Source: Komagataeibacter xylinus
GTDB lineage: Bacteria; Pseudomonadota; Alphaproteobacteria; Acetobacterales; Acetobacteraceae
DNA: 64,000 bases
Reading direction: 5' to 3'
Assembly: GCF_009834365.1 (NCBI RefSeq)
Contig: NZ_CP041348.1
Coordinates: 1,612,501 to 1,676,500, forward strand
Below are positions 215 through 52,878 of the stretch, piece by piece. Every line of letters begins with the position of its first letter. Positions within the stretch are counted from its first letter, which is position 1. The position numbers and the translations under genes are program-made. The notes beneath the pieces are model-generated. The model had not been told where the DNA came from, made no database searches, and saw only the letters and a program-made list of their open reading frames with translations.

Positions 215-227
215 AATGGAAGCGTCC

Positions 228-297
228 GGGTGCTGCCTTGTTTTCAGGAAGGCGGCGTTCCCTGAAGCTTTTTTAAAAAAGCTTCACCAAAACCTTT
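228..297 (+). repeat. Two-hairpin 3' element, copy 1
   Basis: A degenerate first stem (GTGCTGCCTT / GAAGGCGGC) is followed by a perfect palindrome at 263-286 (TGAAGCTTTTT with its complement). It lies directly 3' of the GntP gene in the same orientation. The outer closing stem seen in other copies is not recognisable here, so this copy looks decayed. No T-tract follows either stem. Confidence 0.75.
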
Positions 298-457
298 GTC
301 TGATTTTTCAAACAGTTTCCAGCCGCGCATGGGCGATCATTGCGAATCTCCCGGCTGGGCGGAAAATAAGGTTACCCTGTTGTTACCGCGCCGCCGGATG
401 CAGGGCGCGCAATAGGCGGGGTAACATTCAAAGACTGTTATTTATCAAGAAGTTGGG

Positions 458-532
458 TGGTGCCGACACTCGGAATTGAACCGAGGGCCTACTGATTACG
501 AATCAGTTGCTCTACCCCTGAGCTATGTCGGC
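458..532 (-). tRNA. tRNA-Thr (anticodon CGT)
   Basis: On the minus strand the sequence folds as a complete cloverleaf. The acceptor arm GCCGACA pairs with TGTCGGC, the D stem is GCTC/GAGC, the anticodon stem is ACTGA/TCAGT with loop TTCGTAA, and the T arm is CTCGG-TTCAATT-CCGAG. The discriminator is A and CCA is encoded. Loop positions 34-36 read CGT, which decodes ACG (Thr). It is a stand-alone gene between gntP and pqiA. Confidence 0.97.
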
Positions 533-626
533 AAACCTGTGGCGTCTGATAAACGATGGGCTGGCATGATGCAATATATCAATTGCAGCATTCCCCATTT
601 TAATTTGGTCTATATGGTGGGGGCAG

Positions 627-2105
627 ATGAGTACGTCATTTTCCTCCCGGCAGATGCGCTGTGATGATGCGGGCATCGGCCCCGTGCCCCATATCCGCAT
701 TATTGGCGGCCTGTCGGAATGTCCCGGCTGCGGGCTGTACCAGCGCCTGCCCGAGCTCGCGCCCGGCCAGCAGGCCCTGTGCACGCGCTGCGGGCAGAAG
801 CTCGCGCGCAGGCGGCGCACGGCACCGCTGGCAACGCCGCTGGCCTTCTGCATCAGCTCGGCGGCGTTCTATCTCGCAGCCCTCGCCTCATCGCTCATGA
901 CGCTGGATGTGTATGGCAGGCAGCGCACCGTGGACCTGCTGACCGGGCCGATGGAACTCATGCATGAAGGCTGGGGCGAGGCCGGGATTCTGGTGGGAGC
1001 GGTAACCGTGCTGGCACCCGCGGTGGCGATCGGGTTCATGTTTGCCATCCTGTATGCCGCCGCCCGTCCGCAACTGCCTGACTGGGGGCCGCGCATTCTG
1101 GTGTGGTATGACAAGCTGCGGCCGTGGTCGATGGTCGAGGTCTATATTCTGGGCATCTTCGTGGCCTACACCAAGCTGACCGACATGGCGCATGTCGATG
1201 TCGGCCCTGCGGTGTATCTGATCGGCGCGCTGATGCTGACCATGGCGGCCACTGATTCGACGCTCGATACCGAAATGATCTGGCAGCACCGCCGCATCGA
1301 TTCGCTCACCCGCGCCGAAGGCGGCGGCAGGGTAGTGGTGGATTACGCACATGTGGATGACATCGGCATGCCGCCGGTCGATCATCTGGTGGCGTGCAGC
1401 TCATGCGGGCTGGTGGGGGAACTGGCGCACCCGGTCTCGAACCTGCGCTGCGTGGGGGTTTGTCCGCGCTGTGAGCACAAGGTATGGCGCCGCCTGCCGC
1501 AAACACTTACCCGCACCACCGCCTTCCTCATCGCGGCGGTCGTGTTCTATATTCCGGCCAATCTCTACCCGGTCATGACGTTCACGCGCATGGGCGGCGG
1601 GGGCGGGCACACCATCATCGAAGGCGCGCTCGAACTGTGGGCCGATGGCATGATCCCGCTGGCGCTGCTGGTGTTCTTTGCCTCCATCACCGTGCCCATG
1701 CTCAAGATCGCGAGCCTTGGGTGGATGATCATCCAGACATGGCGCGGCGCGCGCGGGCACCTCGTGGCGCGCACGCGGCTGTTCAGGGTGGTTGATATGG
1801 TGGGCCGGTGGTCGATGATCGATGTGTTCATGATCTCGATCCTGGTGGCGGTGGTGCGATTCAATTTCATGGCCAGTGTCACGGCCAATGCCGGGATGGT
1901 GGCGTTTGCCGCCGTCGTGATCCTGACACTGCTGGCCGCCTGGAGCTTCGACCCGCGCATCATGTGGGATGCAGCGGGGCGCAACGGCCCGGTGACCGAT
2001 GGCCTGCCGCCGGGCGTGGTGGCGGCGGTTGACCAAGGCGGCCCGGCCTCTTCCCTTTCGCCGGCGGAAACACGCCCGGCCAGCATGGAGCCAGATCTGG
2101 CGTGA
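627..2105 (+). CDS. pqiA: PqiA, paraquat-inducible integral membrane protein
   Basis: A 492-residue inner-membrane protein, the usual size for full-length two-domain PqiA. Each half starts with a zinc-ribbon-like Cys pair set (C32-x2-C35 and C52-x2-C55 in the first half, CSSCG and CPRC in the second) followed by several hydrophobic helices, so the protein is an internal duplication. PqiA works with the MCE protein PqiB and the lipoprotein PqiC, which probably move phospholipid between inner and outer membranes and protect the envelope under stress. The ATG at 627 gives a normal N-terminus. The gene overlaps pqiB by four bases (GTGA), pointing to translational coupling in a pqiABC operon. The last 40 or so residues are low-complexity and probably cytoplasmic. 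Confidence 0.9.
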   Translation: MSTSFSSRQMRCDDAGIGPVPHIRIIGGLSECPGCGLYQRLPELAPGQQALCTRCGQKLARRRRTAPLATPLAFCISSAAFYLAALASSLMTLDVYGRQRTVDLLTGPMELMHEGWGEAGILVGAVTVLAPAVAIGFMFAILYAAARPQLPDWGPRILVWYDKLRPWSMVEVYILGIFVAYTKLTDMAHVDVGPAVYLIGALMLTMAATDSTLDTEMIWQHRRIDSLTRAEGGGRVVVDYAHVDDIGMPPVDHLVACSSCGLVGELAHPVSNLRCVGVCPRCEHKVWRRLPQTLTRTTAFLIAAVVFYIPANLYPVMTFTRMGGGGGHTIIEGALELWADGMIPLALLVFFASITVPMLKIASLGWMIIQTWRGARGHLVARTRLFRVVDMVGRWSMIDVFMISILVAVVRFNFMASVTANAGMVAFAAVVILTLLAAWSFDPRIMWDAAGRNGPVTDGLPPGVVAAVDQGGPASSLSPAETRPASMEPDLA

Positions 2106-3766
2106 GTGACGATTTTTCTTCCGGTAATTCCAATGGCAGCGTGCCGCAGGCCCAGACGCGGCGGTACCGTTTCTCGGTCGTGTGGCTGGTGCCGATCGTG
2201 GCCATCATCATCGCGGGCTATCTGGGCTGGCGCGGGCTGACCGGGCGCGGGCCGCTGATTGTCATTAGCTTCGACACCGCCGATGGCCTGACCAGCGGCC
2301 AGACCGAGGTCAAGAACAAGGCGGTCTCGCTCGGCACGGTCGATTCCATCCGGCTGAGCGATGACCTGCACCATGTCGAGGTGCGCGTGCGCATGACGGC
2401 GGCAGCAGGCCGCATGCTGACTGACCACGCCCGCTTCTGGGTCGTGCGCCCGCGCATCAATGGCGCGAGCATTACGGGGCTGGAAACGGTCATGTCGGGT
2501 GCCTACATCGCCATGGATGCGGGTGAGGCGGGCGGTCATTACACCACCCGTTTCACTGGCCTGGAATCACCGCCGGGCGTGCGCTCCGACCAGCCGGGCC
2601 ATACCTATACGCTCATCACGCAGTCGCTCGGCTCGCTTGGCCAGGGCGCGCCCATCTTCTTCCGTGACGTGGTGGTGGGCGAGGTGCTCGGCTACACCAT
2701 GCCGCCAGAAGGGCGCGGGCCGATCAAGGTGCAGATTTTTGTGCAGGCCCCCTATGACAGCTACCTGCGCACCACCACGCGCTTTTGGAACGTGTCGGGC
2801 GTGCAGGTGGGTCTTGGGGCGGGCGGGCTCAAGGTCAAGCTCCAGTCACTTCAGGCGCTGCTCTCGGGCGGGGTGGCGTTTGATCCGCCCGATGAACGCA
2901 ATGAGAAGAACACGCTGTCCCCCACTGCCGGGCCGGACACCGCCTTCCAGCTTTATGACAGCGCGGAGGAAGCCAATAGTGCGGGCTACCGCGAGCGCAT
3001 TCCGCTGGTTACGTACCTGACCAGCTCGGTCACGGGGCTGACCAAGGGAGGGCGCCTGACCATGTTCGGCATTCAGGTCGGCATGATTGATGACGTGAAG
3101 CTGCAGGTCGATCCCGCTACTGGCAAGGCGCATGTGCGCGTGGCCATGGAGCTCCAGCCCGAGCGCGTGCTCGATAACCGGCAGGTTTCACCTGATGCGC
3201 TGGCCGGGCTTTTGCGCATGCAGGTGGCATCCGGCCTGCGGGCTTCGGTGCAGAGCACCAGCATGCTGACCGGCGAATCCGAAATCGGGCTGACCTTCGT
3301 GAAGAATGCAACACCCGCGCAGGTCGAGATGGAGGGCGACGCCATGGTGCTGCCCGGCCAGGCGGGCGGCATGTCGGGCATCATGGATTCGCTCTCGGTG
3401 GTGAGCGACAAGATTGCCGCGATGCCGCTGACCCAGATGGGCGAGAACCTGAACAGCCTGCTGGCCCATGCCGATGCCCGCATCAACAGCCCCGACACCA
3501 AGCAGGCCCTGACCGCGCTGCGCAGTTCGCTGCAGAACCTGCAGGTCATATCGCATGATGCCCGCACCGAAATGCCGCAACTGCTGACCGGCATGGACAA
3601 GACGCTCAAGAGTGCCAACTCGGTACTGTCGAGCTATGGCGGCGATACCGACTTCCAGCGCAACCTGCAGCAGATGATGCTGCAGCTCAACGATGCCGCG
3701 CGCTCGCTGCGCTTCCTGTCAGACTTCCTGACCCACCACCCCTCGGCACTGATTACGGGACGATAA
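2102..3766 (+). CDS. pqiB: PqiB, MCE-domain intermembrane lipid transport protein
   Basis: A 554-residue protein with a short cytoplasmic N-terminus, one transmembrane helix at about residues 20-42 (FSVVWLVPIVAIIIAGYLGW) and a large periplasmic part with repeated MCE (MlaD-like) modules; the first starts at about residue 48 (GPLIVISFDTADGL). The C-terminal region (about 440-540) is rich in Leu heptads and is probably helical, as in PqiB proteins that form a hollow needle across the periplasm. The start is GTG at 2102, which overlaps the pqiA stop. The stop is four bases before pqiC. The role in lipid transport comes from the family; the direction of transport is not shown by sequence. Confidence 0.9.
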   Translation: MSDDFSSGNSNGSVPQAQTRRYRFSVVWLVPIVAIIIAGYLGWRGLTGRGPLIVISFDTADGLTSGQTEVKNKAVSLGTVDSIRLSDDLHHVEVRVRMTAAAGRMLTDHARFWVVRPRINGASITGLETVMSGAYIAMDAGEAGGHYTTRFTGLESPPGVRSDQPGHTYTLITQSLGSLGQGAPIFFRDVVVGEVLGYTMPPEGRGPIKVQIFVQAPYDSYLRTTTRFWNVSGVQVGLGAGGLKVKLQSLQALLSGGVAFDPPDERNEKNTLSPTAGPDTAFQLYDSAEEANSAGYRERIPLVTYLTSSVTGLTKGGRLTMFGIQVGMIDDVKLQVDPATGKAHVRVAMELQPERVLDNRQVSPDALAGLLRMQVASGLRASVQSTSMLTGESEIGLTFVKNATPAQVEMEGDAMVLPGQAGGMSGIMDSLSVVSDKIAAMPLTQMGENLNSLLAHADARINSPDTKQALTALRSSLQNLQVISHDARTEMPQLLTGMDKTLKSANSVLSSYGGDTDFQRNLQQMMLQLNDAARSLRFLSDFLTHHPSALITGR

Positions 3767-3770
3767 GAGC

Positions 3771-4418
3771 ATGCAACGCCCCTTCTGGCATTTCATACAG
3801 TCCACCCGGCCCGTGGCCGCAGGCATGGCGGTTGCATCGCTGCTGGCACTAGGCGGCTGCAGTTCGGCCGACCCCACGCTCTACTCGCTGGCCCCCGTGC
3901 CCGCAGCGCAGGCAGGCATGGTTGGCACAGGCATGCCGGCGGTGATCGAGGTGCGCACGCCCGGCGTCTCGCCCTCGCTTGACCGGCAGAGCATCGTGGG
4001 CGTGCAGGATGACTACAGCGTTACGCCAAGCAGTGGCGCAGCCTGGAGCGAGCCGCTCGCCCCCATGCTCGGTCATGTGCTGGCCGCCGACCTGCAGCAG
4101 CGCCTGCCCGGCGTGAGCATATTTGCCCAGAACGATGCCACGAGCGTGCCCGCGCAGGGGTTTGTCGAGGTCGAGATTACCCGTTTCGCGCATGATGCCA
4201 CGGGCATCGTGCATCTGGCAGGCAGCCTGTCGGTGCACCGGGCGGGTGACCCCGAGCATGCCCTGTCGGTGCCACTGGCACTGACGGCCACGCCAGCAGG
4301 CAGTGGCATGCGGGCCATGGTGGCCTCGCTCAGCCAGTTGACCGGACAGGTGGCGGATATGGCGGCTGCACGGTTACAGACCCTGCCGCCCGCGCCCCAA
4401 CCGGCTCTCCATAAATAA
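3771..4418 (+). CDS. pqiC: PqiC-like outer-membrane lipoprotein (ABC transport auxiliary family)
   Basis: A 215-residue lipoprotein. The N-terminus has a hydrophobic signal (AAGMAVASLLALGGC) ending in a lipobox, with the lipidated Cys near residue 29. The mature part begins SSADPTLYSLAPVP, and the TLYSL stretch is characteristic of the DUF330/PqiC family. It is the third gene of the pqiABC operon, four bases after pqiB, and probably anchors the PqiB needle at the outer membrane. The stop at 4418 is followed at once by a structured 3' element. Confidence 0.87.
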   Translation: MQRPFWHFIQSTRPVAAGMAVASLLALGGCSSADPTLYSLAPVPAAQAGMVGTGMPAVIEVRTPGVSPSLDRQSIVGVQDDYSVTPSSGAAWSEPLAPMLGHVLAADLQQRLPGVSIFAQNDATSVPAQGFVEVEITRFAHDATGIVHLAGSLSVHRAGDPEHALSVPLALTATPAGSGMRAMVASLSQLTGQVADMAAARLQTLPPAPQPALHK

Positions 4419-4420
4419 TA

Positions 4421-4484
4421 AAGGTTTTCGGGTGCCGCCTTTTTTCAAAAAGGCGGCATTCTTCTGCAGGTCCTGCAAAGCCTT
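4421..4484 (+). repeat. Two-hairpin 3' element, copy 2
   Basis: It starts two bases after pqiC. The outer stem is AAGGTTTT (4421-4428) with AAAGCCTT (4477-4484), eight pairs including one G-U. Inside are the core hairpin GGTGCCGCCTTTTT/AAAAAGGCGGCATT and a second small hairpin TGCAGG/CCTGCA whose sequence differs from the second hairpin of other copies. The shape of a closed three-way junction is kept although the sequence has changed. Confidence 0.75.
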
Positions 4485-4492
4485 CCGGGCAT

Positions 4493-4518
4493 AAAAAAAA
4501 GCGCCCGGAGGCGCTTTT
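4493..4518 (-). terminator. Intrinsic terminator of the secE-nusG unit
   Basis: Read on the minus strand, AAAAGCGCC-TCCG-GGCGC is followed by eight T residues (4493-4500). It lies 23 bases past the nusG stop, so it should end the tRNA-Trp/secE/nusG transcript. It is a standard stem plus T-tract, unlike the neighbouring two-hairpin element. Confidence 0.9.
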
Positions 4519-4540
4519 CAGTTCAGTGGGGAGAGAAGGC

Positions 4541-5071
4541 TCAGACCTTCTCCACCTGGCTGTATTCCAGATCGACCGGGGTGGAACGGCCGAAGATGGA
4601 GACGCTCACCTTCAGGCGGCCACGCTCCTCGTCCACTTCCTCGATCGTGCCGTTGAACGAGGTGAAGGGACCATCAGCCACGCGGATCTGCTCGCCAATT
4701 TCGAAGGTAACGGAGGGGCGGACCTGTGCCACACCTTCTTCCGCCTGCTTCATCGCCCGTTCGGCTTCAGCCTTGGGGATGGGCGTGGGGCGGGTCTTGC
4801 TGCCAAGAAAGCCGGTTACCTTGGGCGTGTCCTTGACCAGGTGCCACGCCTCATCGGTCAGCTCCATGTTGACCAGCACGTAACCGGGGAAGAACTTGCG
4901 CTCGGCGTTGACCTTCTGGCCACGACGCACTTCCGTCACTTCTTCCGAAGGGACGAGGATCTCACCGAAATGGTCAGCCAGCCCTTTCTGGGCAGCCTGT
5001 TCCGTGATGTGCTGGGCAATCTTCTTCTCGAAGCCCGAATAGACGTGGATCACATACCACCGCTTGGCCAT
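4541..5071 (-). CDS. nusG: Transcription termination/antitermination factor NusG
   Basis: A 176-residue NusG. The N-terminal NGN domain begins [17 protein letters not shown] and contains the FFPGYVLV motif; the C-terminal KOW domain contains [16 protein letters not shown] and the [17 protein letters not shown] strand. NusG binds RNA polymerase and links it to Rho, ribosomes and NusE. The open frame extends 48 codons further upstream, but family alignment supports the ATG at 5071, which lies eight bases after secE. The pair secE-nusG is the normal arrangement, but here a terminator follows instead of rplK, so the unit is cut off from the ribosomal protein/rpoBC operon. Confidence 0.97.
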
Positions 5072-5079
5072 GGCTGAAC

Positions 5080-5274
5080 TCAGCCTCCCAGTCCGAAGAG
5101 TTTCCGTACGGCAAGGCCGATCACCTCGTCGACGAGGAAAAAGAAAACCGATGCAAGACCGGCCATGGCCAGCACCGCACCCGTTGTCATCAGGGTGGCG
5201 CGTCGTGTGGGCCACGTGACTTTCCTGGCCTCGGCCCGAACGTCTTCAACAAATTTCGCGGGACTGACCGACAC
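5080..5274 (-). CDS. secE: Preprotein translocase subunit SecE
   Basis: A 64-residue single-span SecE of the short alphaproteobacterial type. It has an amphipathic N-terminal helix ([19 protein letters not shown]), including the conserved KVTWPT motif, then one transmembrane helix (about 30-55). The start is taken as GTG at 5274 because AGGAAGGG lies a few bases upstream and the N-terminus matches the family. It is the second protein of the SecYEG channel in the inner membrane. It sits between tRNA-Trp and nusG. Confidence 0.95.
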
Positions 5275-5409
5275 GAAATACCCTTCCTGCAACGCCACGG
5301 CGCACCAACCGGATGAACCAGCCGGTGCGGGGCCAAAGAACCGGTGCGGACCATTGTGGCCCGACCCATCGGGTGCCAGGCCGGAAGGGGAATGCCCGAC
5401 CGGAAAGAA

Positions 5410-5486
5410 TGGCAGGGGTGGAGGGTCTCGAACCCGCAACCTCCGGTTTTGGAGACCGGCGCTCTAGCCAATTGAGCTACACCCCT
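5410..5486 (-). tRNA. tRNA-Trp (anticodon CCA)
   Basis: On the minus strand the acceptor arm AGGGGTG pairs with CACCCCT, the discriminator is G, and CCA is encoded. The D stem is GCTC/GAGC. The anticodon stem is CCGGT/ACCGG with loop CTCCAAA, giving anticodon CCA (Trp). The T stem GCGGG/CCCTC contains one mismatch. tRNA-Trp directly before secE-nusG is a conserved bacterial order. Confidence 0.96.
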
Positions 5487-5665
5487 GCAAAGCCGCCTGC
5501 GAAGGCCCGAAACACACGGCATGGCATCTGCCACGCTGTTTCGGATCGTCCATGCGAACCCGGCACAGGAAGCGGAAAAAAGTATGAACCGAGCCGAAAG
5601 TCAAGAGGGTGCACTCATAAAAATACAAGTTTGGTGCGTTTGGCCGCCCGTTCCGGTTTATGGGC

Positions 5666-5695
5666 TTGCGCGACAGAGGGCGGAAACGGTATGGA
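5666..5695 (+). promoter_or_regulatory. Candidate promoter for tRNA-Gly
   Basis: TTGCGC (5666-5671), an 18-base gap and TATGGA (5690-5695) lie 16 bases before the tRNA-Gly gene. It is a reasonable sigma-70 fit by spacing, but both boxes are imperfect. Confidence 0.3.
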
Positions 5696-5711
5696 TGGGC
5701 CAACCTTATGG

Positions 5712-5785
5712 GCGGGCGTAGCATAGTGGTAATGCAGTAGCCTTCCAAGCTTCTGAGGAGGGTTCGATTCCCTTCGCCCGCTCCA
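5712..5785 (+). tRNA. tRNA-Gly (anticodon TCC)
   Basis: The acceptor arm GCGGGCG pairs with CGCCCGC, the discriminator is T, and CCA is encoded. The D stem is GCAT/ATGC. The anticodon loop CTTCCAA gives anticodon TCC, which reads GGA/GGG (Gly). The anticodon stem GTAGC/GCTTC has one T-T mismatch. A monocistronic gene between tRNA-Trp (divergent) and the MFS gene. Confidence 0.95.
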
Positions 5786-5873
5786 TGGTCCCCACACAAT
5801 ACAATCCGTTTCGGCCCTGACCGGATTCGGGCGCAGGCCGCCCCGGCGGCGTCATGGGGCATGGGTGATTTCA

Positions 5874-9739: not shown

Positions 9740-9755
9740 GGAAGATCGGGCAACC

Positions 9756-12145
<2,390 letters not shown>

Positions 12146-12602: not shown

Positions 12603-12659
12603 TATTATAGCCAGTCTGCGTCTGCTTCCTGCATTGGGGCGGACGTATTGCCGGACATG

Positions 12660-12688
12660 AAAAGCGCCCTTTACGGGGCGCTTTTTTG
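12660..12688 (+). terminator. Intrinsic terminator of atpHAGDC
   Basis: The stem AAGCGCCC/GGGGCGCTT with loop TTTAC is followed by a run of six T. A-rich bases before the stem could make it work on the minus strand too, for queF. Confidence 0.92.
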
Positions 12689-12705
12689 TTTGGTGGGTAT
12701 TAGCT

Positions 12706-12760
12706 AAAGCATTCAAAAAATGCCGCCTTTTTGAAAACAGGCGGCACCCAGAAATCTTTA
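12706..12760 (-). repeat. Two-hairpin 3' element, copy 3
   Basis: Minus-strand orientation, ending eight bases from the queF stop. The core hairpin on the minus strand is GGTGCCGCCTGTTTT/AAAAAGGCGGCATT. The flanks TAAAG (12706-12710) and CTTTA (12756-12760) pair, with three further pairs inside after two mismatches. The second inner hairpin is missing. Confidence 0.72.
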
Positions 12761-12767
12761 TTATGAA

Positions 12768-19977: not shown

Positions 19978-19984
19978 ATGAAAT

Positions 19985-20027
19985 GTTTCAGGATGCCCCC
20001 TTATTTGAAAAAGGGGGCATCCGAAAC
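19985..20027 (-). repeat. Two-hairpin 3' element, copy 8 (variant core)
   Basis: Minus-strand orientation, 26 bases past the dadA stop. The core stem is GGATGCCCCCTT/AAGGGGGCATCC instead of GGTGCCGCCTT/AAGGCGGC, so both arms differ from the other copies and still pair. Flanks GTTTC/GAAAC extend the stem with one unpaired base. Confidence 0.7.
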
Positions 20028-20052
20028 GTTCTTATGATGAAAACTTCGTCTT

Positions 20053-30998: not shown

Positions 30999-31007
30999 TT
31001 ATCAGTA

Positions 31008-31087
31008 AAAAGTTTTTGGGCGCCGCCTTTTTTTAAAAGGCGGCATTCTTTTGAAGCTTTTTGCAAAAAGCTTCACCAAAAACTTTT
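31008..31087 (+). repeat. Two-hairpin 3' element, copy 4 (complete)
   Basis: Outer stem of 12 perfect pairs: AAAAGTTTTTGG (31008-31019) and CCAAAAACTTTT (31076-31087). Inside are hairpin 1, GCCGCCTTTTT with AAAAGGCGGC, and hairpin 2, GAAGCTTTTT with AAAAAGCTTC. It lies between trxA and the convergent hpnK and could serve either, but the orientation matches trxA by comparison with other copies. Confidence 0.85.
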
Positions 31088-31098
31088 AGTCTGTCCGT

Positions 31099-35455: not shown

Positions 35456-37482
35456 GATTTCGGTCCGTTTGCCGTCTTTAGCAAGGGCTGCGTCATGCTG
35501 ATTCCGACACCCAGCGCATCGAGTGCGGTATTGGTAATGGCTACCGCATCCAGCCCGGCCTCATGGTACTGGGCCTCCTGGCTGTTATGGTCGATGAAGC
35601 GGTCAGGCAGGGTCATGGGGCGGAAGCGCACGCGGTCGAGCAGGCCGGTTTTGGCCAGATGCGTCATGACAAAGCTTGCAAATCCGCCAACCGAGCCTTC
35701 CTCGATGGTGATCAGCACCGCATGGTTGCGCGCCAGTTGCTCGATCAGCGCGGTATCGAGCGGCTTGGCGAAGCGGGCATCGGCCACGGTGGGGGCTAGC
35801 CCCTGGGCGGCCAGCATGTCAGCGGCCTTCAGCGCATCGGCCAGCCTTGGCCCGAGCGAGAGGATGGCGATGCCGCCCTGCTCGGGGCCGGACTGGCGCG
35901 CCATTTCACGCACGATTCGCCCGCGCCCGATCTCGATGATCTGGCCCGCCGCCGGCAGGTCCAGCCCCAGCCCAGCGCCGCGCGGGTAGCGCAGGCCAAG
36001 CGGGCCTTCGTCAAACGCGATGGAGGTTGCGGTCATGTTCAGCAGTTCAAGCTCGTCGCTTGGCGCCATGAGCGTGATGCCGGGCAGGCAGCCCAGATAG
36101 GCGATGTCGAACGCACCGGCATGGGTCGCGCCATCGGCGCCGACCAGCCCCGCACGGTCGATGGCGAAGCGCACCGGCAGCTTCTGCAGCACCACGTCAT
36201 GCATCACCTGATCATAGGCGCGCTGCAGGAAGGTGGAATAGATGGCGCAGAACGGGCGCAGCCCTTCGGTCGCCATGCCGGCAGCAAAGGTCACGGCATG
36301 CTGCTCGGCAATGCCGACATCAAAGAAGCGGTCGGGATAGGCCCTGGCGAACTTGTCGAGCCCGGTGCCCGACGGCATGGCGGCAGTGATGGTGACGATT
36401 TTGTCGTCAGTCGCCGCCTGGCGGACGAGTTCTTTCGCAAACACCGAAGTGTAGCTCGGCGGGCCGGACGGGCCTTTCTTCTGCTCGCCGGTGACCACAT
36501 TGAACTTGGAGACGGCGTGATACTTGTCACCCGCCGATTCGGCCGGGCTGTAGCCATGGCCCTTCTCGGTGATGACATGCAGCAGCACGGGGCCGACATC
36601 CTCGGCATCACGCAGGTTGCGCAGGATGTGGACGAGCTGGTTCATGTCATGCCCATCAACGGGGCCGACATAATAGAAGCCGAGTTCCTCGAACAGCGTG
36701 CCGCCGGTCATGATGCCGCGCGCGTATTCATCGGCCTTCTTGGCCGTGCGCTCGAGGCGGCCGGGAAGGCGCTTGGCCATTTTGGCGGCGAGTTCACGCA
36801 AACTCAGGAACTTGCGCGAGGACATCAGCCGCGACAGGTAGCTCGACATGGCGCCCACGGGGGGTGCGATCGACATCTCGTTGTCGTTGAGCACCACGAT
36901 CAGGCGCTCCGCGCCCGGGCCGCAATGCGAGGCGTTGTTCATTGCCTCATACGCCATGCCCGCCGAGATCGAGCCATCGCCGATCACCGCAATCACGTTG
37001 CGTTCACGGTAGGAGGGGTCTTCCTCCGCGCGCAGGTGGTGGGCAACGGCCATGCCGAGGCCGGCTGAAATGGAGGTGGAGGAGTGGGCCGCGCCAAACG
37101 GGTCGTATTCGCTCTCGCTGCGGCGCGTAAAGCCCGAAAGCCCGCCCGGCTGGCGCAGGGTGCGGATGCGCTCGCGCCGCCCGGTCAGGATCTTGTGGGG
37201 GTAGGTCTGGTGGCCCACATCCCAGATCACGCGGTCGGCGGGCGTGTCGAACACGGCATGGAGTGCGACCGTGAGTTCAACCACGCCGAGCGACGCGCCA
37301 AGATGGCCGCCGGTGGTGGACACGGTATCGATCGTTTCCGACCGCAGTTCCTCCGCAAGCTGCTTGAGCTGCTCGACCGAGAGGTTGCGCATGTCGTGCG
37401 GCCACTGCACCCGGTCAAGCTGGGCGTAGCGCCCAAGGGTCGGAATCGCGGGTTTGGTCTGATCCATGATGTTCGCGTCCAT
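35452..37482 (-). CDS. dxs: 1-deoxy-D-xylulose-5-phosphate synthase
   Basis: A 676-residue thiamine-diphosphate enzyme that joins pyruvate and glyceraldehyde 3-phosphate, the first step of the MEP isoprenoid pathway. The ThDP/Mg motif is [35 protein letters not shown] lies near the start, and the transketolase-like pyrimidine domain has [17 protein letters not shown]. The frame extends 44 codons upstream; ATG 37482 is chosen from family alignment, with ATG 37467 also possible. It heads the minus-strand hpn run and is coupled to hpnM, so precursor supply and hopanoid genes should be co-expressed. Confidence 0.94.
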
Positions 37483-40518: not shown

Positions 40519-40548
40519 GGCCAGAGAAGCGGGTTTGGAAATCCAGGA

Positions 40549-40599
40549 ACGCTTCAGAAAAATGCCGCCTTTTTGAAAAAAGGCGGCACCCGGAAACGT
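40549..40599 (-). repeat. Two-hairpin 3' element, copy 5
   Basis: Minus-strand orientation, six bases past the lytic transglycosylase stop. The core is GGTGCCGCCTTTTTT/AAAAAGGCGGCATT. On the minus strand the outer arms are ACGTTTC (40593-40599) and GAAGCGT (40549-40555), which pair with one G-U. The second inner hairpin is absent. Confidence 0.75.
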
Positions 40600-40604
40600 C
40601 TGTT

Positions 40605-42581: not shown

Positions 42582-42762
42582 GGCGAAGCGGATTTAAGCC
42601 GTGCGTGCAGGGAAAGCAATAGCTAACGCATTTCAGGGCAGTAAATAAGTTTTCAGAACAGAATGAGGGAACTTATGTAAACATCGTAAAGCATGTGCGC
42701 AAATGGCAATGAATAGCTGATCTGCACAGCCTAATATGCCGGAATGATTATGTTAATACCCT

Positions 42763-43617: not shown

Positions 43618-43722
43618 CGGATGGATACACCCCGCACCGGCACGGACCATGCAGCCGCGCGCCGTCCTGCCTCCCCGCTCGGGGTTTGGCAGCAGACGCC
43701 GCACGCGGTAGATTCTGGCGTC

Positions 43723-46481: not shown

Positions 46482-46503
46482 GCGGGAAGGACATTTACGG
46501 ATG

Positions 46504-46581
46504 AAAGTTTCTGGGTGCCGCCTTTTTGAAAAAAGGCGGCGTTCTCTGAAGCTTTTTGAAAAAAGCTTTACCAGAAACTTT
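46504..46581 (+). repeat. Two-hairpin 3' element, copy 6 (complete)
   Basis: Outer stem of 11 perfect pairs: AAAGTTTCTGG (46504-46514) with CCAGAAACTTT (46571-46581). Inside are GCCGCCTTTTT/AAAAAGGCGGC and GAAGCTTTTT/AAAAAGCTTT. Compared with copy 4, TTTCTGG has replaced TTTTTGG and the other arm has changed from CCAAAAA to CCAGAAA, so pairing is kept. It lies between ispE and the convergent SDR gene. Confidence 0.85.
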
Positions 46582-46583
46582 TA

Positions 46584-47570
46584 TCAGTTTTTCCTGCGGC
46601 GCAGGGCCAGCAGCACGATGCCCATCAGCCCCGTTACGGTGGCAAGCTGGGCATGGCGGCTGGTCAGCAGGAACGGCATGGCCTTGCGCGTGACCATGTC
46701 AAACCGGCCATGGGCGGCATAGGCGCCGGGCACGGTTTCATACAGGTCATCAGGCTCATTGCCTGCCACCGGGGTTTTTTCCAGTTGTTTCGCATAGCCC
46801 TTGCCCGACAGCCAGCGGTCCGACAGGCCGGGCAGGAAGGTGGACAGCGCCCAGTTGCGCACGCCCGACAGGCCCACCCAGATATCACGCTCGCGCCCGA
46901 AGGCGGCGCGGCAGATGGCCTCGGCGGCAATTTCAGGCTCGTACACCGGCCCCATCGGCTTGAGGCGTTTGCCGGTGTGGTTGCGTGTCCATGAAAAGCG
47001 CGGCGTGTTGATGGCGGGCAGATGCACCAGCGCGATATGGATGCGGTCGCCATCATGCAGGATTTCGGGGCGGATGCTCTCGGAAAAGGCCCGCACGGCG
47101 GCACGCGCCCCGTTTTCCACCGCCTGCAGCGGCGGCGGGCGCAGGCTGGCCAGCCGGTCAAGGTTGACGATGGTGCCATGGCCCCGGCGGCGCATGCGGG
47201 TCAGGGCCGCGCGGGTGCCGTTGACGGTGCCAAGGTAGGTCACCTCGGTTGCGCGTCGGATCTCATCGGCCTCAAGGGCTGCGACCTGACCGGTCACGGT
47301 GGCCCCGGCGCAGTTGATCCACAGTGTGATGGGGCCGAGCTTTTCTTCTATTTCCTCAGCCGCCTGTTCCACTGCTGCCGCATCGGCCACGTCGGCGCAG
47401 ACGATATGGGTGCGCACGGTGAGTTCACGCAGTTCGGCTGCGGCATCATTGAGCCGGTCGCGGTTGCGGCCAAGCAGGGCGACATCGCACCCGGCCCGGG
47501 CCAGTGTGCGGGCCGTGGCGCGGCCGATTCCCGCGCCCGCTCCGGTAATGACGGCAACCTGCTGCGGCAT
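46584..47570 (-). CDS. Membrane-anchored short-chain dehydrogenase-like protein with degenerate active site
   Basis: A 328-residue SDR-fold protein. The cofactor motif TGAGAGIGRATA and NCAG are intact. The catalytic region reads IVNLDRLASLR and LQAVENGARAAV. By gap-free comparison with active relatives (S...YxxxK), Ser is Arg139, Tyr is Glu152 and Lys is Arg156. The C-terminus has a hydrophobic helix (LATVTGLMGIVLLAL) and an RRRKN end, so it is probably tail-anchored in the inner membrane. It may bind NAD(P) as a sensor or scaffold, without normal dehydrogenase chemistry. The ATG at 47570 begins just before the Rossmann strand; 47585 is also possible. The frame is clean, so it is not a recent pseudogene. 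Confidence 0.85.
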   Translation of the reverse strand: MPQQVAVITGAGAGIGRATARTLARAGCDVALLGRNRDRLNDAAAELRELTVRTHIVCADVADAAAVEQAAEEIEEKLGPITLWINCAGATVTGQVAALEADEIRRATEVTYLGTVNGTRAALTRMRRRGHGTIVNLDRLASLRPPPLQAVENGARAAVRAFSESIRPEILHDGDRIHIALVHLPAINTPRFSWTRNHTGKRLKPMGPVYEPEIAAEAICRAAFGRERDIWVGLSGVRNWALSTFLPGLSDRWLSGKGYAKQLEKTPVAGNEPDDLYETVPGAYAAHGRFDMVTRKAMPFLLTSRHAQLATVTGLMGIVLLALRRRKN

Positions 47571-47696
47571 GAATGATGCTCCCACCCGTTGGTAACAAGA
47601 ACCGCGCGGGCAACGCCGCGCGGGCTGAAAATCATGACCGGCACCCTATCACGGCCTGCGGCGGGCGAACACCATCACGCAGGCAGGGGTGCCCCC

Positions 47697-48275
47697 TCAG
47701 ATGTATTTCAGCGCCACGATGCCGCCCACCAGCACGACAGCGAACAGCCCGGCCACCAGCGGCAGGCGCTGCTCGATAAAGCCCTGGATCGGCGCGCCAT
47801 AGCGGCGCAGCAGGGCCGCAAGCAGGAAGAAGCGCGCGCCGCGTGTTATCGCGCAGGCCAGCAGGAACGGCACTACAGACAGATGCGCCGCACCACTGGC
47901 AATGGTGACGAATTTGAACGGGATGGGCGTCAGCCCCTTGATGAGAATGATCCACACGCCCCATTCACGGAAGCGGTCCTGCAGGGTCTGTAATGTGTGC
48001 TCGGCATGATAGAAATGCACGATTGGCATGGCCGCATATTCCAGCAGGAACGAGCCGATGCACCAGCCCAGCACCGCCCCCGCCACGGAGGCCGCGGTGC
48101 AGACGGCCGCCAGCCGGAAGGCCCGCTCGCGCTGTGTCAGCACCATGGGCAGCAGCATGATGTCAGGCGGCAGCGGAAAGACGCTGGCCTCGGCAAAGGC
48201 GATCACTGCCAGCCAGATGACGGCATGCCGGCTGGCGGCGAGGGCAGTGATGCGGGCATACAGGCGATCAAGCAT
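47697..48275 (-). CDS. DedA/YqaA-family (VTT domain) membrane protein
   Basis: A 192-residue inner-membrane protein. The VTT/SNARE-associated pattern is seen: FAEASVFPLPPDIMLLPMVL near the N-terminus (the E and P residues of the re-entrant loop) and GLTPIPFKFVTIASGAAHLS in the middle (G-x-TPIP-K). DedA-type proteins act in lipid carrier recycling or proton-linked transport and affect envelope stability. About four to five hydrophobic helices are visible. It is a single gene between the SDR-like and OsmC-like genes. Confidence 0.88.
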   Translation of the reverse strand: MLDRLYARITALAASRHAVIWLAVIAFAEASVFPLPPDIMLLPMVLTQRERAFRLAAVCTAASVAGAVLGWCIGSFLLEYAAMPIVHFYHAEHTLQTLQDRFREWGVWIILIKGLTPIPFKFVTIASGAAHLSVVPFLLACAITRGARFFLLAALLRRYGAPIQGFIEQRLPLVAGLFAVVLVGGIVALKYI

Positions 48276-48315
48276 TATCGGGCAATGCCATTAACCGCCT
48301 GCTGCGGGCAAGGAC

Positions 48316-48795
48316 TTATTGCGCGCTGGTCACCCGTGGCTCGCAGCTCACGGGAAAGCGTACAGAGCGCGCGATACAGCTGCGCATGGCGGCATCGTGG
48401 TGCAGGTCAATGACCTGCTGCACGTCATGCGCGGTGGAAAGGGCGGCATGGGGCCGCAGGATGACCTGCGTGAAGGAAAATGACCCGTCCTCGAACTCCT
48501 CCAGAATGCCCTCGGCATGGTCGGCATAGGAAAGAATGCCGATTCCCATCGCCGTGCACAGATGGATGAACCAGAGCTGGTGGTCAGCGCACAGCGCGCC
48601 GAGCAGAAGCTTTTCCGGGTTCCATTTCTGGGAGTCGCCGCGAAAGGCGGGTGAGGCCGAGCCGTCAATGACCGGTCGGCCCGTGCAGTGCAGCTCGTAG
48701 CTGCGTTGATGATGGGCCTGCCGGGAAGCCCCGTCATGTTCGCCGCTTCCGGTCCATAAAAGTGAGACCTGATAACGGTGTGTTCTGTCCGGCAT
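48316..48795 (-). CDS. OsmC-family protein with altered catalytic Cys
   Basis: A 159-residue OsmC/Ohr-fold protein. WNPEKLLLGALCADHQLWFI covers the central helix. Relatives have the peroxidatic Cys at the position of Asp71 (pattern L-S-A-C-H); here the segment is L-C-A-D-H, so a Cys sits two residues earlier (C69). The second conserved Cys (C140 in MRSCIARSVRFP) is kept. OsmC proteins reduce organic hydroperoxides with a Cys pair; this member may use C69 instead or may have lost activity. It lies just downstream of the two-component genes on the same strand (40 bases from the kinase stop). Confidence 0.85.
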   Translation of the reverse strand: MPDRTHRYQVSLLWTGSGEHDGASRQAHHQRSYELHCTGRPVIDGSASPAFRGDSQKWNPEKLLLGALCADHQLWFIHLCTAMGIGILSYADHAEGILEEFEDGSFSFTQVILRPHAALSTAHDVQQVIDLHHDAAMRSCIARSVRFPVSCEPRVTSAQ

Positions 48796-48835
48796 CGAGC
48801 GCTATATCCTGATTTGTCCGTACTGGAATCGGACC

Positions 48836-50413
48836 TTAGCAGACAAGTGTGACAGTCACACGTAGTCCATGCGGGTGTCGGTTGCCTAGCCGGATATCGC
48901 CGCCAAGCCCCCAGATGATATTACGCGAGATGGACAGGCCGAGCCCCGTGCCGCCGGTTTCGCGGTTGCGGCTCTGTTCGGCGCGGACAAAGGGGTCGAA
49001 CATGCGCTCGAGGTCCTCGGTGGGCAGGCCGGGGCCATCATCCTCGATCAGGATGGTGACGGTGGATTCCGCGCCATCCTCGCCTGCCTTCTGGTGGGGT
49101 GGAAGCAGCACGATCCGCACGCCGCCGCCATATTTTATGGCGTTGGTCACGAGGTTGCTCAGCGCGCGCTTGAGCGCCATGGGGCGCGCGCGCACCAGCA
49201 CGTCGGGTATTTCGGATGAAAATGCGATGTTGTCAGCCGCATCGAGATAGGTCTCGGTGGCTTCATCGGCAATGGTCTGCAGCAGTGCGGTCAGGTTGAC
49301 CTGCCCCATCGGCTCGCGCTGCGAGGCGTCGCGGCCAAAGGCCAGGGTGGCGGCCACCATGGCTTCGAGTTCATCGAGGTCAGCGAGCATCTTGGCCCGC
49401 ATCTCGTCATCCTCGATGAATTCTGCGCGCAGCTTCAGGCGCGTGATCGGCGTGCGCAGGTCGTGGCCAATGGCGGTCAGCATCAGCGTGCGATCGGTCA
49501 GGTAGCGGCGGATGCGGTGCGCCATGGTGTTGAAGGCATGGGCGGCGCGCGCCACCTCGCTTGGCCCGTTCTCGGGCATGGGCGGGGCGTTGACGTTGCG
49601 GCCAAGCTCCTCGGCGGCGGCGCCGAGCGTGCTGACGGGCGCGATCAGCCTGCGCACGCCCCACAGGATCAGGATGCCGCCCGCGAAGGTCATGATGAGG
49701 AAGGCGATGGGGAAGGTTGGCGAGCGGAACAGGCTGGGCCGGGGCAGGATGTAATGGATCGTGACCCACCGCCGCTCATCGGGCAGCAGGAAGGCAACCG
49801 CCCGCCTGCGCCCCGATGCGGGCGAGATCAGCACCTGCTCGGGGCGCATGGATTGCGGCAGCGGCCCCATGCCGGGGTCGTTTTCCGGGCCGAATCCATG
49901 CGGGCCGCCGGGGCTGTCGGGGCCAAAGGGGCCACCCGGTCCGTGCGGGCCACCGTGGCTGAAGGGCACCGGCCCCATGTCATCGGACATGTGGCCGCCG
50001 TTCCACTCACCCGGTGGCATGTGGTGCTGGGAGCGGGGCGGCAGCGCCATGGCGTTGATCATGTCCGGCTCGGGGCCGGGGGTGAGGGTGATGTGCACGC
50101 TCTCAGGCAGGTGCAGGGCCGCAAGCTCGCGGTCACGGTCTGACGGCGCCGTCTCCACGATGGCGCGGTAATAGGTGAACATCTTGCTGCGCGCGCGCTC
50201 ATAGATCATGCGCTGGTCAAAATCGAACCGGTCCAGCGCGTGGATGGTCAGCCCGATGATCTGGATGATGCCCAGCCCCCCGATCAGCAGCAGCGTGGTG
50301 CGCGCGGCAAGCGACTGCGGCAGGATACGGCGCCACAGGCGCGGCCACGCACCTGGCGGTTTTTCCGCCGGTGGAGGGGCTGACAGGAAGGAGGAACCGG
50401 AGAACGGCTGCAT
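48836..50413 (-). CDS. Sensor histidine kinase (EnvZ/OmpR-type) with Gly/Pro/His-rich sensor insert
   Basis: A 525-residue inner-membrane kinase. TM1 is at about 38-58, the periplasmic sensor at 60-232, TM2 at 233-253 (AFLIMTFAGGILILWGVRR), then HAMP, the H-box IGHDLRTPITRLKLRAEF with His317, and an HATPase domain with NLVTNAIKYGG (N box), EDDGPGLP (G1) and GGTGLGLSIS (G2). Residues 129-188 in the sensor are unusually rich in Gly, Pro and His, with Met and Asp, and may bind metal. It is transcribed after the response regulator, nine bases from its stop, so the two form one operon. Confidence 0.93.
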   Translation of the reverse strand: MQPFSGSSFLSAPPPAEKPPGAWPRLWRRILPQSLAARTTLLLIGGLGIIQIIGLTIHALDRFDFDQRMIYERARSKMFTYYRAIVETAPSDRDRELAALHLPESVHITLTPGPEPDMINAMALPPRSQHHMPPGEWNGGHMSDDMGPVPFSHGGPHGPGGPFGPDSPGGPHGFGPENDPGMGPLPQSMRPEQVLISPASGRRRAVAFLLPDERRWVTIHYILPRPSLFRSPTFPIAFLIMTFAGGILILWGVRRLIAPVSTLGAAAEELGRNVNAPPMPENGPSEVARAAHAFNTMAHRIRRYLTDRTLMLTAIGHDLRTPITRLKLRAEFIEDDEMRAKMLADLDELEAMVAATLAFGRDASQREPMGQVNLTALLQTIADEATETYLDAADNIAFSSEIPDVLVRARPMALKRALSNLVTNAIKYGGGVRIVLLPPHQKAGEDGAESTVTILIEDDGPGLPTEDLERMFDPFVRAEQSRNRETGGTGLGLSISRNIIWGLGGDIRLGNRHPHGLRVTVTLVC

Positions 50414-50421
50414 GGGGCGGG

Positions 50422-51141
50422 TCAGCTGCGCTCGACCTCGGCTGCGAGCACGTAACCCCCGCCGCGCACCGTCTTGATCAGCTGCGCGTTGCGCCCGTTA
50501 TCCTCAAGCTTGCGGCGCAGGCGGCTGATGGCCACGTCGATGGCGCGGTCGAACGGACCGGCCTGCCGCCCGCGCAGCAGGTCGAACAGCATGTCGCGTG
50601 TCATGACCCGGTTGGCGCGGTCGAGCAGGGCGAGCAGCAGGTCGTATTCGCCGCCGGTCAGGGGCACTTCCACCCCTTCAGGGTTATGCAGCCGCCGCCG
50701 CCCGGTATCGAGCGACCAGCCCGCAAAGCGCAGCGTGTGCAGCACCGGCACGCTGCGCGGGTCCGGCGTGTCGCTCGCGCGGCGCAGCACGGCGCGGATG
50801 CGCGCGAGCAGTTCGCGCGGGTTGAAGGGCTTGGGCACGTAGTCATCCGCGCCCAGTTCAAGGCCGATGATGCGGTCTGTATCATCGCCCATGGCGGTCA
50901 GCATCACGATGGGCACGTTGGCCTGCGTGCGCAGCCAGCGCGAGATGTCCAGCCCGCTTTCGCCCGGCAGCATGAGGTCGAGGATGACGAGCTGGTAATG
51001 CCCTTCCCCCCACCGGCGGCGGGCTTCCTGCCCGTCACGCGCGGTGGTGACGCGCAGTTCGTTGCGTTCGAGGAAGCGTGCCAGCAGGTCACGGATCTCG
51101 CGGTCGTCATCGATGATGAGGATATGCGGCAGCGGGTTCAT
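50422..51141 (-). CDS. OmpR-family response regulator
   Basis: A 239-residue regulator. The receiver domain has IDDDRE (acidic pocket), the phospho-acceptor in LVILDLMLPGESG, TAMG and the conserved Lys in DDYVPKPFNPREL. The C-terminal winged helix (about 140-235) has LTGGEYDLLLALLDRANRVM and FDRAIDVAISRLRRKLED, ending GGGYVLA. The start is ATG 51141; the frame continues 16 codons upstream without conservation. It pairs with the kinase directly downstream. The target genes are not evident. Confidence 0.94.
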   Translation of the reverse strand: MNPLPHILIIDDDREIRDLLARFLERNELRVTTARDGQEARRRWGEGHYQLVILDLMLPGESGLDISRWLRTQANVPIVMLTAMGDDTDRIIGLELGADDYVPKPFNPRELLARIRAVLRRASDTPDPRSVPVLHTLRFAGWSLDTGRRRLHNPEGVEVPLTGGEYDLLLALLDRANRVMTRDMLFDLLRGRQAGPFDRAIDVAISRLRRKLEDNGRNAQLIKTVRGGGYVLAAEVERS

Positions 51142-51219
51142 GCGGTCTACTCTACACCATGGCGCGGGTGGCCGCACCCGGTGTTTCACTCCGTTTCAAA
51201 GGCTGTGACCGCAGCCTTT

Positions 51220-52242
51220 TCAGGCCAGCCAGGAGGGCACGGGCAGGTTCTTGCCGCGCAGGAATTCCGGGTTGAACAGCTTGGACTGGTAGCGCGCGCC
51301 GCCATCGCACAGGATGGTGACGATGCGGTGCCCCGGCCCCATGGCGCGGGCCACGCGGATGGCGGCGGCAATGTTGATGCCCGCCGACCCGCCAACCGAG
51401 AGCCCTTCATGGATCAGCAGGCTGTAGATCTGCTCCAGTGCCTCGGGGTCGGGGATGCGCACGGCATCATCGAAATGCAGCCCCTCGAGGTTGCCCGTCA
51501 CGCGCGACTGGCCGATGCCCTCGGTCACGGAAGACCCGCTGACCGAAAGATCGCCCGACTTCACCCAGCCATACAGGCCCGAGCCTTCGGGGTCGGCCAG
51601 CACGATGCGCGGGCGTGCCACGCCGGCCTTGCGGGCTTCATCCTCCAGCCCCAGCGTAACACCTGCCAGCGTGCCGCCGGTGCCGCACGAGCAGGTGAAG
51701 GCATCAAGCTTTCCGCCCATCTGCTGCCAGATCTCGGGGGCGGTGGTGTGGCGGTGGCCTTCGCGGTTGGCGGTGTTGTCGAACTGGTTGGCCCACACGC
51801 CGCCGGTCTCCTCGGCCAGGCGGCGCGAGACATGCACGTAGTTGCCCGGATCGCGGAAGGGCCTGGCGGGCACGAGCCGCAGGTCGGCCCCGATCATGCG
51901 CAGGAAGTCGATCTTCTCGCGGCTCTGGGTCTCGGGCATGACGATGATGGAGCGGTAGCCGCGCGCATTGGCCACGAGTGTGAGGCCAATGCCGGTATTG
52001 CCTGCCGTGCCCTCGACAATCGTGCCGCCGGGTTTGAGCGTGCCGCGGCGCTCGGCATCGTCGATGATGGCCAGCGCCGCGCGGTCCTTGACCGAGCCGC
52101 CGGGATTCATGAATTCCGCCTTGCCGTAGATCTCGCACCCCGTGATGTCCGACGCATGGCGCAGGCGGATCAGCGGCGTGTGGCCGATCGCGCCAGGCAT
52201 GTCAGCGCTGGGGGAGGAGACGGGATTTGCACTTTCGGCCAT
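51220..52242 (-). CDS. PLP-dependent cysteine synthase-family protein
   Basis: A 340-residue fold-type II PLP enzyme. The PLP Lys lies in NPGGSVKDRAALAII, the Asn loop is EGTAGNTGIGL, the phosphate loop is CSCGTGGTLAGVTLG and the Ser near the end of the site is GLSVGGSAGINIAAA. It is close to O-acetylserine sulfhydrylases (CysK) and to the cysteine synthase/cystathionine synthase group; the MPETQSREK segment and the sequence after it fit a CysK-like enzyme. The start is ATG 52242, with AAGG upstream. It is divergent from the rhodanese gene, which also handles sulfur. Confidence 0.88.
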   Translation of the reverse strand: MAESANPVSSPSADMPGAIGHTPLIRLRHASDITGCEIYGKAEFMNPGGSVKDRAALAIIDDAERRGTLKPGGTIVEGTAGNTGIGLTLVANARGYRSIIVMPETQSREKIDFLRMIGADLRLVPARPFRDPGNYVHVSRRLAEETGGVWANQFDNTANREGHRHTTAPEIWQQMGGKLDAFTCSCGTGGTLAGVTLGLEDEARKAGVARPRIVLADPEGSGLYGWVKSGDLSVSGSSVTEGIGQSRVTGNLEGLHFDDAVRIPDPEALEQIYSLLIHEGLSVGGSAGINIAAAIRVARAMGPGHRIVTILCDGGARYQSKLFNPEFLRGKNLPVPSWLA

Positions 52243-52388
52243 AAGGCAGCACCTTCGCTTGATCTGGGTCGTACCATGCGGCACGGCAGGCCGGATGGGG
52301 CCATGCAGTGCCTGTTGCATCCTTACTATCAGGAATGGGGCAGGGGTGGCATATCCCCCTGCACAGGTTTTTCCAGCCGAAAGGAAAC

Positions 52389-52802
52389 ATGATGATTGAC
52401 GATATCTCGCCCGCCGCCGCGTGGGCTGCAGTCAGCGGTCGCCCCAATGCCCATCTGGTGGATGTGCGGACCCCCATGGAGTGGGAGCATATCGGTGTGC
52501 CGGATCTTTCCAGCGCGGGGCGCGCGCTGGTGCGCGATAGCTGGCAACTGCCGCCTGCCGGCCAGGTCAACCCGGACTTCCTCACCACGCTTGAACAGGC
52601 CGGCATTGGCAAGACCGACGAGATCTATTTCATCTGCCGCTCCGGCGCGCGCAGCATGGCAGCTGCCCACGCGGCGTATGACGCGGGCTATCACAATGTT
52701 TTCAACGTGGCTGACGGATTCGAGGGGCCGGAAGACGCTACCGGCAGCCGCGGTCGCCTTGCAGGCTGGCAGGCATCCGAGCTGCCGTGGACGCGTGGCT
52801 GA
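52389..52802 (+). CDS. Rhodanese-domain protein
   Basis: A 137-residue single-domain rhodanese. The N-terminal strand LVDVRTPMEWEHIG and the active-site loop FICRSGARSMAAA with the persulfide-forming Cys are clear. It may transfer sulfane sulfur or detoxify cyanide; the exact acceptor is unknown. Two ATG codons are adjacent (52389 and 52392) after AAAGGAAAC. It is transcribed divergently from the cysteine synthase-type gene, which may point to a shared sulfur role (inference). A two-hairpin element follows. Confidence 0.9.
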   Translation: MMIDDISPAAAWAAVSGRPNAHLVDVRTPMEWEHIGVPDLSSAGRALVRDSWQLPPAGQVNPDFLTTLEQAGIGKTDEIYFICRSGARSMAAAHAAYDAGYHNVFNVADGFEGPEDATGSRGRLAGWQASELPWTRG

Positions 52803-52823
52803 GTGGCCGTGCGGGATTAAAGT

Positions 52824-52878
52824 AAAAGTTCCTGGGTGCCGCCTTTTTTCAAGAAGGCGGCATTTTTCTGAAACTTTT
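52824..52878 (+). repeat. Two-hairpin 3' element, copy 7
   Basis: It starts 21 bases past the rhodanese stop. The core is GGTGCCGCCTTTTTTC with AAGAAGGCGGCATT. The outer arms AAAAGTT (52824-52830) and AACTTTT (52872-52878) pair perfectly. The second inner hairpin is lost. Confidence 0.75.

Follow-up and report, generated by a model that had tools for sequence, protein, structure and literature searches.

In this study, we analysed a window of 64,000 nt from Komagataeibacter xylinus (assembly GCF_009834365.1, contig NZ_CP041348.1, positions 1,612,501 to 1,676,500) that carries eight copies of a dispersed palindromic element, which lies behind genes and may act in the RNA of mRNA 3′ ends. All eight copies listed in the original prediction were found at their positions. 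The full-length form is about 82 nt long and comprises, in order, a AAAAGTTTTTGG arm, a GC hairpin (H1, consensus TGCCGCCTTTTT...AAAAAGGCGGCG), a T-rich tract directly after H1 (consensus GTTCTTT), a second hairpin (H2, consensus GAAGCTTTTT...AAAAAGCTTC) and a CCAAAAACTTTT arm. All of these parts can be followed in copy 7 (46500..46584, + strand; 103.8 bits with R2, the full covariance model with both hairpins), located in the convergent gap between a GHMP kinase gene and a short-chain dehydrogenase gene: H1 (TGCCGCCTTTTT/AAAAAAGGCGGC), the best conserved part of the element, lies at 46516..46540 (+), the T-rich tract GTTCTCT at 46541..46547 (+) and H2 (GAAGCTTTTT/AAAAAAGCTTT) at 46548..46569 (+). 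Two further copies are full length, namely copy 5 (31005..31089, +; R2 91.5 bits), in the convergent gap between thioredoxin and YdjC-like genes, and copy 1 (215..300, +; R2 72.7 bits), which has H1, H2 and weak arms, lies 2 nt behind the stop codon (window position 214) of a + strand gene and is followed by a tRNA-Thr gene on the − strand. Short forms are copy 3 (12704..12762, −; lacking H2; 77.4 bits with R1, the first covariance model), between an ATP synthase delta/epsilon-type gene and QueF, copy 6 (40547..40604, −; R1 74.7 bits), between genes for a CNNM/CBS protein and an SLT transglycosylase, and copy 8 (52821..52882, +; ATTTTT after H1; R1 77.4 bits), between rhodanese and DUF2272 genes, all three gaps being convergent. 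Copy 2 (4417..4489, +; R1 75.3 bits), in the convergent gap between an ABC-aux lipoprotein gene and a NusG-domain gene, has a different second hairpin. Copy 4 (19978..20035) is a divergent single-hairpin relative with another stem, GATGCCCCC/GGGGGCATC; its R1 scores on the two strands are nearly equal (38.3 bits on −, 36.5 bits on +) and its orientation is undecided.

Model R1 was built from seven of the eight copies, with copy 4 left out, and recovered its source copies at 65–79 bits, copy 4 remaining weak at 36–38 bits. Scanning the genome with R1 gave at least 150 mutually non-overlapping copies (weakest E = 1.5e-7), and the arm motif RAAAGTTTYTGG occurs 129 times versus two for a reversed control; chance is therefore excluded. 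Further copies exist, as 36 of the 100 arm-motif places listed (129 in all) lie more than 40 nt from the best 150 copies, and in 600 kb of tiles R2 found 50 copies and the R1 list held 34. The best 150 are all on the 3.53 Mb contig C1 and none on other contigs. Their spread along C1 is uneven, with 96 at 0.5–1.75 Mb and 22 past 2.25 Mb. Of the 150 copies, 96 have an intact H2 and 99 a 3′ arm that can still be recognised, so that short forms such as copies 3, 6 and 8 are common. Apart from three tRNAs, nothing in the window reached the gathering score of an Rfam family, no Rfam match lay at the element in eight loci at E up to 0.5, and no description of this repeat was found in the open-access literature searched. 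So many similar copies, some of them truncated, are what a repeat without host function would leave, like the repetitive extragenic palindromic (REP) sequences or miniature inverted-repeat transposable elements (MITEs): an unknown enzyme would spread it, and it would survive where it is harmless, behind genes and outside operons, its palindromes being kept perfect by the spreading process or by templated hairpin repair. We hold this to be a serious, though minority, possibility, and return to it with each body of evidence below.

The position of the copies relative to genes was determined with gene calls from our own codon-score script rather than a published program, tRNA and other RNA genes being ignored in the counts. 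None of the 150 copies lies inside a gene; 90 are in convergent gaps, 38 in tandem gaps in sense, 18 in tandem gaps in antisense, 3 (of the 149 placed) in divergent gaps, and one was unplaced. A stop codon is no more than 20 nt away from 122 of the 146 copies in convergent and tandem gaps. Two congeners gave similar distributions in the same order of classes, 74/31/14/2 in G014 (148 matches on contig C1 used of 149 listed, 27 of them not fetched) and 56/10/13/1 with 2 unplaced in G004 (111 of 112 used, one being the opposite strand of another; 29 not fetched and 2 without neighbours). When all gaps longer than zero in the tiles were considered, the element occupied 31 of the 64 between convergent genes, 18 of the 276 between tandem genes and 1 of the 66 between divergent genes, as against about 8, 28 and 14 copies expected from gap length, and it was found at none of the 180 tandem ends with a gap below 60 nt. 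In 56 tandem gaps the median distance was 14.5 nt from the stop codon to the near end of the element and 126.5 nt from its far end to the next start, and uniform placement within these gaps was excluded (p ~ 2e-26). In the window, the prediction was right that copies sit close behind stop codons, but its count of eight ends with the element and 23 without was wrong: 50 gene ends lie wholly inside the window, with an element within 200 nt of 13 and within 30 nt of 11, and copy 1 comes in addition to these, as its gene starts outside. Such placement is as an element at transcription-unit ends would show. It is also the extragenic, behind-gene and rarely divergent placement of REP and REPIN sequences; the tight anchoring behind the stop codon in long tandem gaps speaks against a repeat tolerated merely where it does no harm.

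The element is not confined to one strain. R2, for which one copy may match on both strands and the best 150, 22 or 11 candidates per genome were scored, matched all 19 Komagataeibacter genomes, with 34 to at least 150 matches each, as well as other genera of the Acetobacteraceae (29 of 200 genomes and 17 of 102 genera in a family sample at E up to 1e-4, nine of the 29 having four matches or fewer). In a class sample at E up to 1e-6, our genome was the only one matched among 385. Its plasmid contig C2 matched 24 plasmid records, nine of them from Komagataeibacter; K. oboediens gave the best match (95.9% over 65% of the query) and Novacetimonas hansenii the second. Relatives from other genera retain the AAAAGTTTTTTG/CAAAAAACTTTT arms and the A/T tips of the hairpins, and their GC stems differ; 22 of 23 such loci were placed (L134 was not), 15 in tandem, 6 in convergent and 1 in divergent gaps. 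Five convergent gaps were followed through up to 18 congeners; of the genomes with data, ours included, the element was present in 14 of 18, 16 of 19, 3 of 6, 14 of 18 and 13 of 17. Most of the five gaps are empty in G005, G010 and G013, which have 83, 34 and 66 R2 matches, respectively, and in L156, a Komagataeibacter record, R2 matches nothing within 3 kb of trxA. At the site of copy 2, G014 retains ATAAAAGTT, the start of the 5′ arm, with the rest gone, which looks like a deletion remnant.

Both orientations were found at each of the five orthologous gaps, the assignment being weak or ambiguous for G016 at gap c6 and for G004 at gap c7. Thus the position of the site is kept across congeners and its orientation is not. 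In the thioredoxin gap (the copy 5 site), our genome and G016 have one orientation and G014 the opposite one, the flanks and arms being the same in all three; the copy seems to have been inverted in place, and we infer in-place flipping of the interior as the cause of such inversions. A fixed sense orientation, as originally claimed, is not supported: tandem copies occur in antisense as well in all three genomes and, because copies 2–8 lie between convergent genes, each of them is at once sense to one neighbour and antisense to its partner. The orientation seen in the window carries little weight, since it varies at orthologous sites and seven of the eight copies are convergent. For the functionless repeat, these data cut both ways. 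Empty orthologous sites and both orientations at the same site would be expected of it, whereas occupation of the same gaps in species up to 18% apart in their SLT protein speaks against it.

RNA folding showed that each of the eight window copies is more stable than all 200 of its own shuffles (z −3.4 to −8.1). The outer arms pair in seven of them, as predicted, copy 1 folding as two hairpins. The predicted three-way junction is the minimum-energy fold of 82 of the 150 genomic copies, but 48 fold as two hairpins and 20 as one stem. Within the genome, H1 has 16 two-sided compensated cells at ten pairs versus about 3 by shuffling and H2 has 35 versus about 19 (table sums); the outer arms show no covariation excess (34 cells versus about 42). 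The arm change cited as covariation, from TTTTTGG/CCAAAAA to TTTCTGG/CCAGAAA, is real but lies between copies 5 and 7 rather than 4 and 6, and over three genomes this pair shows a weak association (p = 0.02). Over the convergent and the two tandem classes, A-C mismatches in the arms number 153 and G-U pairs 66; two inner pairs, with C-A in 52 and 55 copies, account for much of the former, independently of orientation. Other genera provide the strong evidence. In genome G156, which belongs to another genus, the best 30 of 61 R2 matches held 19 distinct copies, 8 convergent, 6 tandem sense and 5 tandem antisense, none divergent or inside a gene and each no more than 18 nt from a stop codon. These have nine different stem hexamers in H1 and eight in H2, and 106 of 114 stem pairs in H1 and 109 of 114 in H2 are Watson–Crick (shuffled-partner maxima 85 and 94). 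The hairpin centre was placed in each copy where pairing was best, a choice that biases the observed values upwards. Selection on structure, as originally claimed, is thus supported for H1, less so for H2, and by the swapped stems in G156, but not for the outer arms. Selection on pairing is the simplest cause of stems kept with swapped letters, although part of the effect could come from whole hairpins being exchanged or from imperfect palindromes being repaired against a template. Because paired stems are kept despite letter changes, the element probably shapes mRNA ends.

Whether such selection acts on RNA can be read from mismatches by orientation, because selection on RNA would let G-U pairs stand on the transcribed strand but not A-C mismatches, whereas a DNA structure treats G-U and A-C alike. 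Pooled over three genomes, the G-U:A-C ratio in H1 was 27:14 for tandem sense as against 11:26 for tandem antisense copies (p = 0.0017), and it was 84:38 in convergent gaps; p values from pooled data, here and for the terminator scores below, are too small because our genome and G014 share orthologous sites. In our genome alone, it was 13:3 in sense versus 3:10 in antisense copies (p = 0.003). These mismatches, together with the terminator scores below, give moderate evidence that H1 has a role in RNA, above all in copies that are sense to their gene, and an orientation-dependent sign of this kind is not what a repeat without host function would show. It also bears on a DNA-level element, in which the A/T-rich nested palindrome would bind a topoisomerase or nucleoid protein, or extrude as a cruciform, and so handle supercoils between convergent genes. 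Such an element would account for the strong preference for convergent gaps, the free orientation, and the A- and T-tracts of arms and hairpin tips that are kept across genera while the GC stems change, but it predicts no orientation difference in H1, and a difference was found in our genome and in the pooled set. We consider it unlikely.

The T-rich tract behind H1 contradicts the original statement that T-runs do not follow the stems, and it raises the question of whether the copies are simply Rho-independent terminators that share sequence by chance. Terminator scores were calculated with our own re-implementation of the d'Aubenton-Carafa formula. Over three genomes, the sense copies in which H1 with its tract scored above zero numbered 21 of 79; for antisense copies the figure was 2 of 45 (p = 0.0017 for the difference) and for convergent copies 37 of 220. 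In our genome, positive scores were given by 13 of 38 tandem sense copies versus 1 of 18 antisense copies (p = 0.02). The seven bases behind H1 hold on average 4.3 T in sense and convergent copies and 3.8 in antisense copies; this dependence of the tract on orientation is likewise at odds with a functionless repeat. Ordinary terminators would explain H1, the tract and the 13 positive sense copies. However, the arms and H2 are foreign to a terminator, the median score is negative in every class, and no copy scores above zero on the − strand in any of the three genomes, while two of three canonical hairpins scored for comparison reached about +40 (the third, −1.4). With 29 of 146 copies in our genome positive on the + strand and 0 of 146 on the − strand, the copies are mostly unlike canonical terminators, in agreement with the prediction, and the chance-terminator explanation is very improbable. 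By this measure, canonical terminators are rare in our genome, being present at 45 of 493 gene ends.

Taken together, the results suggest that the copies form a dispersed RNA element at mRNA 3′ ends, selected for its structure, which would be part weak terminator and part end protector, a reading to which we give about even credence. In other bacteria, transcripts terminated by Rho are then shortened by exonucleases as far as a stable hairpin. RNA polymerase leaving a gene would transcribe the element a few bases behind the stop codon. In + orientation, H1 would fold first and make, with the T-rich tract behind it, a weak intrinsic terminator. For transcripts with a more distant end, the completed fold of H1, H2 and paired arms would, in both orientations, be a stable cap that keeps 3′ exonucleases off. 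We infer both steps, termination and end protection, from sequence. As one site can hold the interior in either orientation, a single copy could serve either of two convergent genes. More tentatively, and with clearly less confidence, the element might be a portable RNA 3′-end module used throughout the Acetobacteraceae, with a fixed frame of arms and A/T tips, GC stems exchanged like cassettes and an interior that flips in place, so that in a genome poor in canonical terminators roughly every second convergent pair would gain structured ends (in the tiles, 31 of 64 gaps).

Several observations weigh against an RNA element of mRNA 3′ ends. The H1 wobble sign was not significant in G014 (11:7 versus 4:9, p = 0.15) and was absent in G004 (3:4 versus 4:7, p = 1), and positive terminator scores likewise did not differ significantly in these congeners (7 of 31 sense versus 0 of 14 antisense in G014, p = 0.08; 1 of 10 versus 1 of 13 in G004, p = 1). 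H2 showed no orientation difference in G-U and A-C over three genomes, and in the arms A-C exceeded G-U in every class (G-U:A-C 13:33, 9:29 and 44:91), so that outer arms and H2 are without a sign of RNA selection, as a DNA-level element would have it. Most copies fail the terminator score. Purifying selection against insertion elsewhere would also give most of the placement, except the stop-codon anchoring. Some orthologous gaps are empty and 21–41 nt long, and no single copy is therefore indispensable. Canonical terminators are not rarer beside the element, being found at 10 of 60 convergent ends with it and 7 of 48 without (gaps of at least 60 nt), and two of the five orthologous gaps keep another terminator-like hairpin in every congener read and a third does so in some (by eye), which a repeat without function would also allow. 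Mutual exclusion with canonical terminators, considered as proof of replacement, was not found and was rejected. With canonical terminators no rarer and extra hairpins kept beside the elements, a role purely as a substitute terminator is not supported.

Among known systems, REP sequences are the closest in kind. A survey (PMC3733652) describes GTAG and CGTC REP repeats as short palindromes of high copy number that are extragenic and mainly between convergent and unidirectional genes, takes G-T pairs in their stems as a sign of transcription, and gives CGTC repeats as missing in Acetobacteraceae. The present element shares with REP, BIME and REPIN sequences, as portrayed there, the short palindromic form, high copy number, extragenic location and preference for convergent and unidirectional gaps; unlike REP and REPIN sequences, it has neither GTAG nor CGTC in the consensus of its 150 copies. 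A search for the gene of the REP-associated tyrosine transposase (RAYT; Y1_Tnp, PF01797) gave no match in the genome, the control being positive in 5 of 14 genomes including Escherichia coli. With both head motif and Y1 transposase missing, membership in the REP/RAYT system was rejected. The missing transposase argues against a spreading functionless repeat as well, as does the lack of inward arm pairs 300–4000 nt apart among the 36 unassigned arm places (of the 100 listed out of 129). No insertion sequence with the same ends was found among those 100 listed places. Terminal inverted repeats, a feature of MITEs, are present in the form of the AAAAGTTTTTGG/CCAAAAACTTTT arms, and the empty orthologous sites are too diverged for a junction or target-site duplication to be read. 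The best reading is that the element is REP-like in kind and belongs among the dispersed palindromic 3′ repeats without being a REP/RAYT member.

To our knowledge, the element has no sequence in common with ERIC, YPAL, RUP, Correia/NEMIS and further small mobile repeats, from which it is set apart here without base-by-base comparison. According to a review (PMC2229807), these are intergenic, most have terminal inverted repeats, and ERIC is described as affecting the stability of mRNA; intergenic location and terminal inverted repeats are thus shared, whereas our element has two nested hairpins with exchangeable stems and a fixed position behind stop codons. Some intrinsic terminators are proposed to consist of DNA uptake repeats (PMC2267715). 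A GC hairpin followed by a T-rich tract at gene 3′ ends is common to these terminators and the element, which differs in its weak T tract, its extra hairpin and arms, and its occurrence in both orientations. If an RNA element of mRNA 3′ ends is indeed what these copies are, a REP/ERIC-type repeat would be the main structured 3′ end in industrial cellulose and vinegar bacteria. It has long been asked whether dispersed palindromes function as RNA or simply shelter behind genes, and the question becomes testable here because both orientations and swapped stems occur naturally at many sites.

Two hairpins next to copies in the window were also seen by eye in every congener read, a terminator-like one at 4490–4520 beside copy 2 (score −1.4 on the + strand) and a canonical terminator at 12659–12686 beside copy 3 (score +41.7). 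Finally, 9 of 18 congener contigs end 3.26–3.43 kb behind the SLT gene, at about window positions 37200–37400, near the start of a DXP synthase gene.

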